Source: Faecalibacterium sp. An122
Lineage (GTDB): Bacteria > Bacillota > Clostridia > Oscillospirales > Ruminococcaceae
Direction of reading: 5' to 3'
Assembly: GCF_002160895.1 (NCBI RefSeq)
Contig: NZ_NFLL01000017.1
Coordinates: 1 to 51,006 of the forward strand
DNA length: 51,006 nucleotides
Shown here: piece by piece, positions 1-39,336 of the stretch
Position numbering within the stretch: position 1 is the first letter of the stretch
Layout of the letters: each line of letters begins with the position of its first letter
Notes under the pieces: generated by a model
What the model saw: only the letters and a program-made list of their open reading frames with translations
The model's database searches: none
Told to the model about the DNA's origin: nothing
Made by a program: the position numbers and the translations under genes

Positions 1-129
1 GGCCGGTGCGGCAGCGGGAGCGGGTGCAGGTGCGGGGGCAGCGGCGGGAGCAGGAGCTGCGCCTGCGGCGGTCTCCTCCACGCTGACACTGTATGCGACG
101 CCGTTGACGGTAATGGTATAGTACTTCAT
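1..129 (-). CDS. Biotin carboxyl carrier protein, N-terminal fragment
   Basis: The first 43 codons of a minus-strand gene that runs off the left edge. The protein starts MKYYTITVNGVAY, then continues into an Ala/Pro-rich linker (alternating AP and AAP). This layout, a short beta-strand start followed by a long flexible Ala-Pro linker, is typical of the biotin carrier subunit of acyl-CoA carboxylases and sodium-pumping decarboxylases; the biotinyl domain with its AMKM motif would lie outside the window. It follows a carboxyltransferase gene on the same strand, 246 bases upstream, which supports the assignment. The carrier would move CO2 on biotin between subunits. Whether the complex is a carboxylase or a membrane decarboxylase cannot be told here. 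Confidence 0.72.
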   Translation of the reverse strand, partial: MKYYTITVNGVAYSVSVEETAAGAAPAPAAAPAPAPAPAAAPA

Positions 130-177: not shown

Positions 178-377
178 GTCCAATCGGAGGACATGTGCGT
201 CCGATTGGACACATCCAGGGAAATTGACCGGCGAGAGTGTGCGGGCCGCCCTTGGCGGCGCGTGCGCGGTTCGCCGGGAAATTTTGTCGGAAAGGGGGAT
301 ACCAGGGGGAAAACATTTCTGTTCTGCGTATGCAGGCAGAAATGGGTCCCCCCTGGAGCGCGCCCCGCGCGCTTTTT
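178..377 (+). repeat. Structured dispersed repeat A, copy 1
   Basis: A non-coding block with four successive helices: arms 178-188/200-210 (11 bp, perfect); a long stem 221-234/271-284; 314-321/337-344 with inner CTGC/GCAG; and AGCGCGC/GCGCGCT at 357-373 followed by a T run, like an intrinsic terminator. A second copy lies at 38985-39296 on the opposite strand. Loop and linker sequences are shared (for example GACATGTGCGT in the first loop), whereas the helix bases differ but still pair. The element sits antisense between the carboxyltransferase and biotin carrier genes and overlaps the last bases of the former. Function unknown. Confidence 0.8.
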
Positions 378-1695
378 ACAGCGCCATGTTGCCGTGCTTC
401 TTGGGCAGGCGGGAGGCGCGCTTGGTGCGCAGGATATCCAGAGCGGCCACCACGGCGGAGCGGGCCCCCGCTGCGGCGCAGGTCATGTCGGCGGCGCCGG
501 CGGCCACAGCGGCCTGGGCGCTGCACACGTCCTTGGCGTAGGCGGCAGCCTTGGCCTGGGTGGCGGCGGGGATGCTGGCCGAAGCGTCCAGCTCCTCCTT
601 ATACAGCACCGAGACGGCGGCCGAGGGCTCCAGCGGGCTGACCACGCAGCCCTCCACCGCGATCTTCAGGTCGGCGGCGGCCAGAGCGATGTAGACGGGG
701 CCCACGGCCTTGCCGGCCAGCAGGCAGACCCGGGCGGTGGTGGCGTCGGCATAGGTAGCGGACAGGCGGGCAGCCTCACGCATGCCGCCGGCGATATCGT
801 CGGCAGCGCTGGGGACAAAGCCCTCGGTATCCACCACCGTCACCACCGGGATGCTGAAGGCATCGCACAGGCGGACAAAGCGGGATGCCTTGGAGGTGCA
901 GCTGTGGCACAGCTTTTCGCCGGTGACCACAACGCCCACCGCCTCGCCGGCGATGGTGGCCAGGGCGGTATAGACGTTCTTGCCGAAGCCGGCGTACAGC
1001 TCCACGGCGCTGCCTGCGTCCACCAGGGCGGCGGCAGCCTTTTCGGGAGCCAGGCCGTCCTTGAAGGCGGCAGCCGGGGCCTCGAAGTCAAAGCAGGCGG
1101 GGCCGGCCAGGTTGTTGGAGGGCAGCATCCCCACGATGCGGGCGGCCTTGGCGGCAGCCTCGGCGGCGTCGGGGGCCACGATGGCGGCCACGCCGGCCTT
1201 GGCGGCGGCGGCAGCGGTGCCGGCGCCTTCCACCTTATCCCCCTTGGCGGCGGAGGTGAAGGGCGGGGTGAAGAACAGCTCGGCCCCCTCGGCCATGATG
1301 CAGACGTCGGCGTTGGCGGCAGCCAGCGCGCTGGAACCGCCGCAGACGCCCAGGACCACGGCCACCTGAGGGATGACGCCCGACACCTTGGCGATGGCGG
1401 CGTTCAGCTTGGCGCTGGCGGTCAGGGCGTCCAGGCCCTCGGCCAGTTTGGCGCCCGCAGCCTGGTAAAAGGTCACCACCGGGCAGCCGGTCTCAGCCGC
1501 CAGGTCCAGCAGGCGGACCATACGGTCCACGTCCTTTGCGCCCAGCGCGTCGCCGTTCTGCCAGAGGGTGTACACCTGCTGGCCCCCGGCGCAGCCATAG
1601 GCGGCGCTCACCGCGCCCTGCTCAAACAGAGCCGTGGAAACACCGTCATCGTAAAACCGGGCAAGAATATCTTTTTGGTTCATCTTTGAAGCCAT
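376..1695 (-). CDS. Acyl-CoA carboxyltransferase subunit (biotin-dependent)
   Basis: 439 residues, Ala-rich, with two crotonase-like halves as in propionyl-CoA carboxylase beta / methylmalonyl-CoA decarboxylase alpha. Family patterns include GVIPQVAVVLGVCGG in the N half and a C half with SKASRFVRLCDAFSIPVVTVVD followed by a region resembling the Gly-rich AYIAM segment (here GPVYIALAA). It is shorter than the usual ~510-520 residues, mainly at the N end, and quite diverged. It should transfer a carboxyl group between an acyl-CoA and biotin on the carrier encoded next door. The ATG at 1695 is chosen for the GGGAGGTC site just upstream; an ATG further upstream at 1746 lacks one. Exact substrate uncertain. 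Confidence 0.75.
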   Translation of the reverse strand: MASKMNQKDILARFYDDGVSTALFEQGAVSAAYGCAGGQQVYTLWQNGDALGAKDVDRMVRLLDLAAETGCPVVTFYQAAGAKLAEGLDALTASAKLNAAIAKVSGVIPQVAVVLGVCGGSSALAAANADVCIMAEGAELFFTPPFTSAAKGDKVEGAGTAAAAAKAGVAAIVAPDAAEAAAKAARIVGMLPSNNLAGPACFDFEAPAAAFKDGLAPEKAAAALVDAGSAVELYAGFGKNVYTALATIAGEAVGVVVTGEKLCHSCTSKASRFVRLCDAFSIPVVTVVDTEGFVPSAADDIAGGMREAARLSATYADATTARVCLLAGKAVGPVYIALAAADLKIAVEGCVVSPLEPSAAVSVLYKEELDASASIPAATQAKAAAYAKDVCSAQAAVAAGAADMTCAAAGARSAVVAALDILRTKRASRLPKKHGNMAL

Positions 1696-1756
1696 GATCG
1701 GACCTCCCTGTTCCCTCGGGCGGCACAAGGCCGCCATATCTTTCACAATTGCCCTT

Positions 1757-10648: not shown

Positions 10649-10794
10649 GCCTACTTTTTCGAGAAAAAGTAGGCAAAAAGCTTTTCACTGGGTACCATAC
10701 ACTTTCCGGGTCTCCGGCCGTTCCGCGGAACATTTACGCTCCGGCTCGCTCCCGGCGTTTGCGCCTGCGGCGCGGTGCGATGCAAGGTTTTGCG
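10649..10794 (+). repeat. Dispersed repeat B, copy 1
   Basis: Begins with a hairpin GCCTACTTTTT-CGAG-AAAAAGTAGGC (10649-10674), then a block (10681-10794) closely matching the minus strand of 24099-24214: shared words include TACCATACA, TTTCCGGGTCTCC, CGGAACATTTACGCTCCGG and CGATGCAA. The rest of the 414-base spacer (10795-10995) has no gene; it contains a perfect dyad GCACCGCA-GGAG-TGCGGTGC (10947-10966) near the end of the MerR gene, without a clear T-run. Confidence 0.75.
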
Positions 10795-23449: not shown

Positions 23450-23524
23450 AGGGTGTACCTCTTTCCGATGATGAATCGTTCAGAGTATACCACAAACCCC
23501 GCTGAAAGAAAACACCGCCGCATC

Positions 23525-23552
23525 AAAAAAGCCCCGGGCGGACCCGGGGCAC
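23525..23552 (-). terminator. Terminator at end of the aroF 3' region
   Basis: Minus strand GCCCCGGG-TCCG-CCCGGGGC followed by TTTTTT. It is the first strong terminator after aroF, more than 800 bases downstream of its stop, so the repeat array between may be transcribed. Confidence 0.82.
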
Positions 23553-23596
23553 AGGGGAGGATTGCAGGAAGAATATAAACATGTGCAGACCAAACC

Positions 23597-24060
23597 CGCC
23601 GGCAGGACTTCGTGAAGCAGACAGCAGTCAGCGGTACCAGGTAAAGCTTTTTGCCAAGCTTTTTCACGAAAAAGCGGGCCGCAGGCAGGGAGCCTCATAA
23701 AGCGGCTGAAAGCTTGCCGCCGGCAGGGCCTTGTGAAGCCCACAGCAGTTAGCGGTACCAGGTAAAGTTTTTTTGCCAAGCTTTTTCACGAAAAAGCGGG
23801 CCGCAGGCCGGGAACCTTATAAAGCGGCTGAAAGTCTGCCGCTGGCAGGACTTCGTGAAGCAGACAACGGTCAGCGGTACCGTATGAAAAACAGGCTGCA
23901 TAAAGCCTTGGACTCACAGGGCCGCAGGCCGGGAGCCTCATAAAGCGGCTGAAAGTCTGCCGCCGGCAGGGCCTTGTGAAGCCCACAGCAGTTAGCGGTA
24001 CCAGGTAAAGCTTTTTGCCAAGCTTTTTCACGAAAAAGCGGGCCGCAGGCCGGGAGCCTG
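23597..24060 (-). repeat. Tandem repeat C, four units of 121-122 bp
   Basis: Aligned on the GTACC word, units fall at 23634, 23755, 23877 and 23998, so the period is 121, 122 and 121. Each has (minus strand) a hairpin GCTTTTT-CGTG-AAAAAGC, then GGCAAAAAGCTTT, CTGGTACCGCTGACTG and a TTCACGAAG/TCCTGCCGGC segment. Unit 3 keeps its flanks but has a different ~50-base centre without the hairpin. Open frames here are repetitive by-products and are not annotated. The hairpin plus GGCAAAAAGCTTT plus GGTACC order matches repeat B copy 1. Confidence 0.88.
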
Positions 24061-24092
24061 ATCAAGAGGGTGGCCATGCTTGACGCAATAAA

Positions 24093-24358
24093 CCAGGTTT
24101 TGAACCGGTTTGCATCGTACCGCGTCGCAGACGCAAACGAAACGAACGAGCCGGAGCGTAAATGTTCCGTGGAAGTTTTGGAGACCCGGAAACTGTATGG
24201 TACACAGTGAAACCTCTTGCGCTTAGCCGATTTTTGCGGCGCGCCGCGGAGGGCGCTTGCAAAAACCGGAGCGCTGCGCCAGCTTCGGCCCGGCTGTTTC
24301 GTCCACTGGACGCGCCGGGCCAAAGCTGCCTTTTCCTACTTTTCTTCAGAAAAGTAGG
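24093..24358 (-). repeat. Dispersed repeat B, copy 2
   Basis: Starts at the aroF stop with hairpin arms CCTACTTTTCT / AGAAAAGTAGG (24335-24358), followed on the minus strand by an extra module (24230-24300) and then the block 24099-24214 shared with 10681-10794. Relative to copy 1 the hairpin bases differ but pair. The extra module is also found in repeat A copy 2 (39069-39140). Confidence 0.75.
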
Positions 24359-37460: not shown

Positions 37461-38906
37461 ATGTCTCAGCATGACCGCTATATCAGTCCTTTTTCCACCC
37501 GCTATGCCTCGGACGAGATGCAGTATATCTTCTCGGACGACAATAAGTTCCGCACCTGGCGCCGCCTGTGGGTGGCCCTGGCCCGGGCCGAGATGAACCA
37601 GGGCCTGGACAACATCACCCCCGCCATGATCGCCGAGCTGGAGTCCCACCTGGACGACATCAACTACGATGTGGCCTCCGCCCGGGAGAAGCTGGTCCGC
37701 CACGACGTCATGAGCCACGTCTACGCCTATGGCCAGCAGTGCCCCCAGGCCGCCGGCATCATCCATCTGGGCGCCACCAGCTGCTATGTGGGCGACAACA
37801 CCGATATCATCGTGATGCGCCAGGGCCTGGAACTGGTGCGCACCAAGCTGGTGGGCGTGCTGGCCAAGCTGGCCCGCTTCGCCAGGGAATACAAGGATAT
37901 GCCCTGCCTGGCCTACACCCACGGCCAGCCCGCCCAGCCCACCACCGTGGGCAAGCGCGCCACCCTGTGGGCCAATGAGCTGGTGATGGACCTGGGCGAG
38001 ATCGAGCATCGCCTGGAGACCCTGCAGCTGCGGGGCGTCAAGGGCACCACCGGCACCCAGGCCAGCTTTATGGAGCTGTTCAAGGGCGACGCCGACAAGA
38101 TCCGCGCCGTGGACGCCGAGATCGCCAAAGAGATGGGCTTTGATCCCAGCGCCGTCATCCCGGTGTCGGGCCAGACCTACAGCCGCAAGGTGGACGCCTT
38201 CATCCTCAACGCCCTGGCCGGCATCGGCCAGAGCTGCATGAAGTTTGCCACCGACCTGCGTCTGCTGGCCAACTTCAAGGAGATGGAGGAGCCCTTCGAG
38301 AAGAACCAGATCGGTTCCTCGGCCATGCCCTATAAGCGCAACCCCATGCGCTGCGAGCGCATCTGCGCCCTGTCCCGCTACCTGATGGCGGATGTGCTGA
38401 ACCCCAGCTTCACCGCCGGCACCCAGTGGTTTGAGCGGACCCTGGACGACAGCGCCAACAAGCGCGTCGCCATGGCGGAAGGCTTCCTGGCCACCGACGC
38501 CATCCTGAACATCATGCTGAACGTCACCGACGGCCTGGTGGTCTACCCCAAGGTGGTCCGCAGCCGTCTGATGGCCGAGCTGCCCTTCATGGCCAGCGAG
38601 AACATCATGATGCAGGCGGTGGAGAAGGGCGGCAACCGTCAGGAGCTCCACGAGCGCCTGCGCCAGCACGCCATCGCCGCCGGCAAGCAGGTCAAGGAAG
38701 AGGGCCTGCCCAACGACATGGTGGAGCGGATTGCGGGAGATCCGGCCTTTGGCCTGACCCGCGAGGAGATCGAGGCCGGCTTCATCCCCGAGAACTTTGT
38801 GGGCCGCGCTCCCCAGCAGGTGGAGGAGTTCCTGGCCAATATCCTGCAGCCCATCTTTGCCCGGTACCCCGAGGCCCTGGACCAGAACGCCGACCTGAGC
38901 GTCTGA
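37461..38906 (+). CDS. purB: Adenylosuccinate lyase
   Basis: 481 residues. SPFSTRYASDEMQYIFSD at the start, HLGATSCYVGDNTD, TYTHGQPAQPTTVGKR-like segment with its catalytic His (YTHGQPAQPTT), and the lyase signature GSSAMPYKRNPMRCERI with the catalytic Ser loop. It releases fumarate at two steps: SAICAR to AICAR, and adenylosuccinate to AMP. Last gene of the purine operon, 56 bases after purL, with AGGAGAG as ribosome site. purC, which makes SAICAR, is not in the window and must be elsewhere. Confidence 0.97.
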   Translation: MSQHDRYISPFSTRYASDEMQYIFSDDNKFRTWRRLWVALARAEMNQGLDNITPAMIAELESHLDDINYDVASAREKLVRHDVMSHVYAYGQQCPQAAGIIHLGATSCYVGDNTDIIVMRQGLELVRTKLVGVLAKLARFAREYKDMPCLAYTHGQPAQPTTVGKRATLWANELVMDLGEIEHRLETLQLRGVKGTTGTQASFMELFKGDADKIRAVDAEIAKEMGFDPSAVIPVSGQTYSRKVDAFILNALAGIGQSCMKFATDLRLLANFKEMEEPFEKNQIGSSAMPYKRNPMRCERICALSRYLMADVLNPSFTAGTQWFERTLDDSANKRVAMAEGFLATDAILNIMLNVTDGLVVYPKVVRSRLMAELPFMASENIMMQAVEKGGNRQELHERLRQHAIAAGKQVKEEGLPNDMVERIAGDPAFGLTREEIEAGFIPENFVGRAPQQVEEFLANILQPIFARYPEALDQNADLSV

Positions 38907-38945
38907 TCCCGCCCGCCTGAAACGGCCTGAAACGGTATAAATAAA

Positions 38946-38983
38946 AAAACACCCTCTGCCCTGGATTGGGGCGGGGGGTGTTT
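38946..38983. terminator. Terminator hairpin downstream of purB
   Basis: AAACACCC...GCCC / GGGGC..GGGGTGTTT. On the plus strand only TTT follows; on the minus strand seven T follow, so it is stronger as an end of the minus-strand repeat A copy 2. Confidence 0.72.
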
Positions 38984-38984
38984 G

Positions 38985-39296
38985 AGCGTGTCGAAAAACG
39001 ACACGCTTTAGGGGGAACCCATTTCTGCACGCATGCGCGTGACAGAAATTCCTTGGTTGCGGTTCCCTGCTTTTGCGGCGGGCGTCGCGGCGCCCTTGCA
39101 AAAGACAGACCGCGGCCCCTGCTCCGCTTCGCCTGTTTCTGCCGCAGGCAGCGGCTCAGCTCCGCAGTCCCTAATATCCCCCTGGGGACAAAATTTGCCG
39201 CAGAACCGCGCACGCGGCCTTGCGGCCTCGCACACTCTCTGCGGCAAATTTCCCTGTAGGTGTCCCAGCCGTACGCACATGTCGTCCGGCTGGGAC
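38985..39296 (-). repeat. Structured dispersed repeat A, copy 2
   Basis: Minus-strand homologue of 178-377. Helices: 287-296/262-271 of the 39 kb block (CGGCTGGGAC arms, 10 bp) around the conserved loop GACATGTGCGT; a perfect 14-bp stem 39191-39204/39238-39251; ATTTCTG/CAGAAAT with inner CACGC/GCGTG (39021-39049); and AGCGTGTCG/CGACACGCT (38985-39007). It has an extra ~110 bases between the second and third helices, including the module 39069-39140 shared with repeat B copy 2. It occupies most of the 531-base spacer after purB. Confidence 0.8.
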
Positions 39297-39336
39297 TTTT
39301 TTTGGTTTCATCAGATGTTGCACAGCCCGGCTGTCC

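Follow-up and report, generated by a model that had tools for sequence, protein, structure and literature searches.

Repeat A, a structured mobile element of Faecalibacterium that targets terminator hairpins

MITEs and other small bacterial repeats, such as the BOX/RUP, ERIC, bcr1 and RU elements, are short, non-coding, structured sequences which are found in multiple copies between genes and are presumed to be mobilised in trans. REP and REPIN sequences are hairpin repeats present in many copies outside genes and are linked to RAYT (Y1) transposases. Group IIC introns insert beside intrinsic terminators in a fixed orientation. Among insertion sequences, ISfinder gives duplications of 0–60 bp for the IS1182 family.

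One member of the IS1182 family, IS1272, has stem-loops as its target, which are replaced with no duplication, as described in the part of Wan et al. 2017 (PMC5678879) drawn on here. The model in the same part of that paper has further branches, in which the whole stem-loop or only the loop is duplicated, and of the IS1272 insertions reported there as lying very close to genes, all four were immediately downstream (PMC5678879). Siguier et al., as cited in that text, describe IS1182 members which target palindromes. An IS1182 of another organism has 4-bp direct repeats according to the section of PMC3196728 consulted, which counts against an IS1182 origin for the longer repeats reported below. 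IStrons, which combine an insertion sequence with a group I intron, are an example of mobile DNA carrying a conserved structured RNA (excerpt of PMC4227781).

Here we describe Repeat A, a non-coding sequence of about 180–215 nt with three hairpins (H1 to H3) and a variable terminal hairpin (H4), found in the window, by which we mean the whole 51,006-nucleotide stretch of Faecalibacterium sp. An122 DNA that was analysed. The source genome consists of 80 contigs, of which the window is contig 9, and is labelled G000. Repeat A shares the MITE-type traits of the BOX/RUP, ERIC, bcr1 and RU elements and differs from them in its hairpin duplications of variable length, its fixed orientation to genes and its three compensating helices. 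Unlike REP/REPIN sequences it is a 180-nt multi-hairpin unit with target duplications, and three genomes rich in it (G004, G007 and G011) have no Y1_Tnp match; unlike group IIC introns it shows hairpin duplications and has no Rfam group II match, and the same three genomes have no RVT_1 match. It differs from IStrons in having neither an Rfam ribozyme match nor an internal transposase. The likeness to IS1272 and the IS1182 family lies in a stem-loop target chosen by structure, with both whole-hairpin duplication and replacement falling within the IS1272 model as drawn in the cited part of PMC5678879. In contrast to IS1272, Repeat A (about 0.2 kb) lacks a transposase, has a conserved fold and shows duplication or flush insertion besides replacement, whereas the new IS1272 copies described in that part gave no duplications.

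Repeat A in the window and its covarying fold

An earlier note on this DNA had described two copies of the repeat, at 178–377 on the plus strand and at 38985–39296 on the minus strand, together with their helices, and we confirmed both at those positions (Table 1). The 5′ arm of H3 in copy 2 holds a copy of a second structured repeat, Repeat B (113 nt), and this accounts for the greater length of copy 2. At −123 kcal/mol, the predicted fold of copy 1 is better than that of each of 200 shuffles (mean −84.2, z = −7.6); its reverse strand also folds better than any of its shuffles (z = −5.7), and copy 2 folds better than all 100 of its shuffles (z = −8.6). Both copies had been said to end in a terminator-like hairpin with a T-run. 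This holds for copy 1, whose H4 was called by the terminator scan, but in copy 2 the T-run lies within the loop of H4 and the terminator-like hairpin only follows after it. Neither that hairpin nor H1 of copy 2 with its opposite-strand T-run was called by the scan. No reading frame was open across all 32 Repeat A cores which we aligned (173–180 nt, with lengths in all three residues modulo 3).

Table 1 Coordinates of the two Repeat A copies and the features adjoining them in the window
Feature	Position	Strand	Remarks
Start of next gene, biotin-carrier-type look by eye	1..129	-	Continues beyond window edge
Repeat A copy 1, H1	178..210	+	Conserved loop GACATGYGC
Repeat A copy 1, H2	221..284	+	Core GUGUGC/GUGCGC, whose G-U wobble pairs hardly vary, between a variable outer and a variable apical stem
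Repeat A copy 1, H2-H3 linker	285..301	+	
Repeat A copy 1, H3	302..356	+	Two stacked helices
Repeat A copy 1, terminal hairpin H4	357..373	+	Followed by T-run; adjoins stop codon of gene 376-1746
Carboxyltransferase gene (Pfam Carboxyl_trans)	376..1746	-	3′ end towards copy 1
Adenylosuccinate-lyase-like gene (Pfam Lyase_1, ADSL_C)	37461..38906	+	3′ end towards copy 2
Terminator-like hairpin immediately right of copy 2	38943..38983	-	By eye; not called by terminator scan
Repeat A copy 2, H4 (terminal hairpin)	38985..39007	-	
Repeat A copy 2, remainder of H3	39008..39055	-	
Nested insert in copy 2, a copy of Repeat B (113 nt)	39056..39168	-	
Repeat A copy 2, H3 outer 5′ arm, left of nested insert	39169..39174	-	
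Repeat A copy 2, H2-H3 linker	39175..39190	-	
Repeat A copy 2, H2	39191..39251	-	
Repeat A copy 2, H1	39262..39296	-	
A-run at left end of copy 2	39297..39303	-	T-run after H1 on the opposite strand

Several other repeats were seen in the same DNA. Repeat B (~113 nt) occurs both outside Repeat A and within it, in the latter case frequently in the H2–H3 linker or close to it; besides the insert in copy 2, it was found at L085, L128, L022, L072, L356, L361, L363, L211 and L214. A third hairpin-rich repeat, of the GCGCAGCGCTCCG...TCGGCTAAGCGCAAG type, was recognised by eye at 24215–24330 of the window and as the insert of Repeat A copy L011. The window also contains four tandem copies of a ~121-nt repeat (23596–24072), adjoining which is the sole Rfam match at E ≤ 1 in 23500–24300, far below threshold, and a pair of 103-nt inverted repeats with 84% complementarity (10683–10785 and 24110–24212).

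Two copies alone prove little, and the evidence for compensatory change was therefore taken from an alignment of 32 copies, from which H4 was left out. The consensus contained 57 pairs, of which 29 showed changes on both sides, and 97.6% of cells were paired. Covariation was 0.312, compared to 0.117 in shuffled alignments and at most 0.064 when partners were slid; none of 500 shuffles attained any of five measures, and sliding the partners abolished the signal. As the 57-pair structure had been derived from these 32 copies, a more independent test was provided by 17 further copies, 16 of them from genera g55 and g19 and one from a viral contig. Here 33 of the 57 pairs showed two-sided changes, 96.8% of cells were paired and covariation was 0.365 (0.108 shuffled, at most 0.086 slid), in an alignment which was fitted to the model and hence leans towards the structure. 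The paired changes which had been proposed for four stems were thus found to be compensatory in H1 to H3, but this finding does not extend to H4, which is variable, lies outside the alignment and could be recognised by its pattern in 45 of 77 copies.

Cells with G·U outnumbered those with A·C by 224:11 in the 32 copies and by 113:5 in the 17 further copies, which favours the plus strand. The bulk of this excess comes from the H2 core, where the wobble pairs barely change; after subtraction of the nearly fixed wobble pairs the ratios were 44:11 and 29:5, still in favour of the plus strand. It should be noted that the arms of the H2 core are also near direct repeats at the DNA level, so they may be fixed for another reason. 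The two alignments show that compensatory change has preserved a predicted three-hairpin fold in Repeat A, with a bias towards the plus strand.

A search of the whole window against Rfam at the gathering score returned tRNA only, with no match to Repeat A. The best sub-threshold matches near copy 1 had E values of 0.76 and 8, and a known RNA family was ruled out for Repeat A. We also rejected group II intron domain V as an identity for H2: the likeness is by eye only, Rfam gives it no support, and RVT_1 is absent from the three element-rich genomes. In open-licence literature on Faecalibacterium repeats or structured RNAs, searched by title and start of abstract, we found no element like Repeat A, and it has apparently not been catalogued before.

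Distribution between genomes and phages

The earlier note had proposed a covariance-model search for further copies, and many were found. Model R1 gave 13 matches in the source genome (E ≤ 1e−5; 150 of 1081 candidates scored), 98 in G007 and 81 in G011, both Faecalibacterium relatives, and 7 in G248, which belongs to another genus; in each genome 150 of about 1000–1280 candidates were scored, so the counts, which include fragments at contig ends, may miss weak copies. A blastn search with copy 1 as the query found 16 matching stretches in the source genome (E 3e−109 to 0.6). The same query matched 11 of 31 Faecalibacterium genomes at E ≤ 1e−6, and the remaining 20 had no match. When R1 was used to sample the whole family, with 6 candidates scored per genome, 9 of 396 genomes and 3 of 126 genera were matched, the single match in G180 being weak. 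Identity between copies was 73–99.4% within G007 (median 86%, 22 copies) and 68–93% within G011 (median 78%, 19 copies), a spread which indicates that a few copies are recent and most are older. Fifteen of the 16 partial matches fetched from G007 lay no more than about 110 nt from the end of a contig, and this clustering means that Repeat A helps to explain the fragmented assembly of that genome.

The nearest relatives of the carboxyltransferase gene beside copy 1 are from Faecalibacterium genomes, several of which have chicken-derived names. We compared 19 of 41 related loci and found the element at one (L019); it was absent from 16, and the other two (L018 and L024) have longer, degraded-looking spacers. 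The L019 element differs from copy 1 at 1 position despite a coding flank which is only about 87% identical, and the simplest reading of these sequences is that the element was transferred laterally through recombination. L023, which is near L019 by eye, is without the element.

Named phages and plasmids had no blastn match to Repeat A. Scanning viral contigs for the pattern yielded 20 stretches, two of which were matched by the profile at E 4e−27, one at 0.0095 and the others not at all. In two IMG/VR contigs which look like the same phage type (L216, at 2416–2594, and L233), Repeat A lies 3′ of a phage gene, in a cluster which encodes head, adaptor and tape-measure proteins of a tailed phage. 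Phages are a possible vehicle of Repeat A between hosts.

Insertion at hairpins

We examined the flanks of the 82 copies, among 87 distinct full copies, which had enough flanking sequence. Local flanking direct repeats of 18–43 nt, above the 97th percentile of mismatched flanks, were found in 15 copies, representing 13 loci (L005 and L059 are one locus, as are L076 and L084), and two additional cases were found in other genera (L192 and L199). In 10 of the 15 the repeat folds as a whole hairpin and in five it covers only part of one (L076, L084, L103, L110 and L124). The left repeat ended 14–17 nt before H1 in 9 of the 15 and the right repeat started 20–26 nt after H3 in 10 of the 15, with the others varying. 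In 67 of the 82 testable copies no flanking direct repeat was detected. Some of the copies without one were placed differently with respect to a hairpin: L113 lies between an A-run and a hairpin, L119 and L122 lie immediately left of a hairpin, the left flank of L120 is rearranged, and at L123 the hairpin has been lost. Of the copies with H4, 26 of 45 had a hairpin (z ≤ −2) immediately to their right, compared to 7 of 32 copies without H4 and to 8/77 and 5/77 control windows.

For five of the duplicated loci orthologues were inspected, and at four of these an element-free relative has a single hairpin. At L005 this is the leader hairpin of a MATE-transporter-like gene, present once in G021 and G023 and twice, around the element, in G000 and G022. 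At L012 a terminator is single in 8 of 12 relatives examined and double in G000, the other 4 relatives having different spacers. The hairpin is single in G025 at L116, where G004 differs, and single in G004 at L069. The fifth locus, L124 of G007, was not counted as having an empty site, since the G004 site (L264) holds a truncated copy; this copy shares its gene end with L124 but has the reverse orientation, which makes independent insertions probable. These before-and-after comparisons show that predicted hairpins are the target of Repeat A and that the hairpin can be duplicated around it.

The hairpin pairs might instead be local tandem duplications which arose independently of insertion, with the element tracking terminators by selection. 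The 67 copies without a direct repeat would agree with this, as would the five repeats which span only part of a hairpin. However, it would not account for the single hairpin in an element-free relative at four of the five inspected loci or for the regular spacing of the repeats from H1 and H3, and we regard it as very improbable.

The window copies had been described as pointing against the neighbouring gene, and this pattern is general: for 67 of the 79 copies with a gene call on the right, the plus strand of the element points at the 3′ end of that gene (P = 2e−10; orthologous copies included, the other 8 of the 87 having no call). There was no orientation preference for the left-hand gene (44 vs 38, 5 without a call). 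Some copies, such as copy 1, directly adjoin a stop codon. Such a fixed antisense orientation beside stop codons, together with the strong covariation, the conserved loops and the plus-strand bias, could point to a primarily regulatory or small-RNA family (a 3′-UTR element, an antisense RNA or a stabiliser of operon mRNA), spread mainly by recombination in the way that copy 1 seems to have been moved laterally. We find this unlikely, as transposition is favoured by the patchy distribution, by match counts which reach 98 in a single genome, by the empty sites and by the duplicated hairpins. A small RNA family, a mobile hairpin element and an antisense 3′-end regulator had all been put forward at the outset, and it is the mobile hairpin element which is supported, by the empty sites, the hairpin target-site duplications and the differences in copy number between genomes. 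We conclude that Repeat A is a real structured mobile element which targets terminator hairpins.

Candidate transposases and biological meaning

Among Faecalibacterium genomes, IS1182 transposases scoring over the NCBIfam cut-off were found in 5 of 11 which carry the element and 1 of 20 which do not (Fisher P = 0.013, ignoring phylogeny); with E ≤ 0.001 in place of the cut-off, the difference shrank (11/11 and 7/20). Of the Faecalibacterium genomes tested for DDE_Tnp_1, 6 of the 9 with the element had it, as did 1 of the 13 without. When ten proteins from DDE loci were typed, eight were IS1182 (one of them a fragment below the cut-off) and two had no transposase match. The source genome has an IS1182 transposase gene at G000:C1:367866-369173. 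One IS1182 copy, L291, sits in a terminator-like loop with the loop sequence AAAAC on both sides (by eye). At L289 and L290 a different palindromic repeat seemingly surrounds IS1182; it is of the form GTGTCGTG...CACGACAC and has additional CGTACATACGTAC arms (by eye).

The best-preserved copies of Repeat A begin with CAGACTGTC and end with GACACGCTG. The first was found exactly at the left end in 10 of 85 copies, or 15 of 85 with up to one mismatch, compared to 0/85 in control windows, and the second exactly at the right end in 15 of 84 copies, or 38 of 84 with up to one mismatch. The ends form a putative short imperfect terminal inverted repeat, noticed post hoc, in which CAGACTGTC corresponds to CAGCGTGTC at 7 of 9 positions. 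In G003, a genome without Repeat A, the terminal repeats of IS1182 are CAGACTGTCTAAC; this IS1182 has the left 9 nt of Repeat A, and its ends are the best match to those of Repeat A. The IS1182 at L293 in the element-rich G007 has GACAGTCT downstream of its gene, beside a terminator-like hairpin (by eye), a likeness of 8 nt on one side. No IS1182 with both Repeat A ends was found. Repeat A was also absent from the IS1182 loci examined, the best match having an E value of 0.07, and a location inside these loci was ruled out.

The explanation towards which we lean is that Repeat A is a structured, non-autonomous, MITE-like element moved in trans by a hairpin-seeking IS1182-type DDE transposase. 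The link to IS1182 is likely, not proven, and we infer the enzyme and the strand chemistry. In this mechanism the target would be a hairpin palindrome, either of a terminator or of a leader, and the 3′ ends of the element would join the 5′ feet of the extruded stem-loop, after which repair would copy the whole hairpin on both sides; insertion flush with the hairpin, or loss of the hairpin, would be alternative outcomes. Spread between species would probably occur via recombination of flanking DNA and via phages. It should be noted that a palindromic target leaves the fixed orientation unexplained, which is a point against an IS1182-type enzyme.

A mobile hairpin element with the same anatomy and target but another enzyme (an IS5-type DDE transposase, HUH/Y1, a reverse transcriptase, or a transposase which is extinct or missing from the assemblies) is less probable, although several genomes give it weight. 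IS1182 had no match in the closed element-bearing genomes G248 and G344, nor in the element-bearing G084, and in G011, with its 81 Repeat A matches, the match was weak and partial only. Y1 and reverse-transcriptase genes are present in G248 and G344, and G004 has a short transposase of the IS5_3 type, with similar 229-aa frames in G001 and G011. Completeness is 84% for G004, 93% for G007 and 92% for G011, and an enzyme might lie in the unassembled parts. Y1 genes were further found in G301 and, with an internal stop, in G000, and RVT_1 in G000, G001, G163 and G084. Against these candidates, the element-rich G004, G007 and G011 lack both Y1_Tnp and RVT_1, which several element-free genomes do have, and duplication of the hairpin is an outcome proposed for an IS1272-type enzyme.

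Two more specific candidates were set aside. An HUH/REP system is disfavoured by the distribution of Y1, though G248, G344 and G301 carry Y1 genes. For IS1634-type long duplications, the duplications given in the part of PMC8024623 consulted are of 4–9 bp, and the long DDE genes which we tested were IS1182.

The conserved fold is probably in use, and in the simplest case it would serve to leave terminator-like hairpins in both directions when the element lands beside a gene end. A more speculative idea, which we hold to be doubtful, is that the plus-strand fold, above all the H2 core, in which the wobble pairs barely change, is a putative working RNA of the transposition system, which would either choose or dock at terminator hairpins or protect the ends of host genes. 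If true, this would add a new kind of non-coding RNA, borne by a transposon and tied to a DDE transposase system, and protection of gene ends would let the element be tolerated at dozens of terminators.

Repeat A offers natural before-and-after cases for duplication of a whole stem-loop, which in the part of PMC5678879 cited here appears only as a branch of the model. It also links structure-dependent transposition with a short element whose RNA-like fold covaries strongly, and it suggests how terminators can provide numerous insertion sites which are tolerated.
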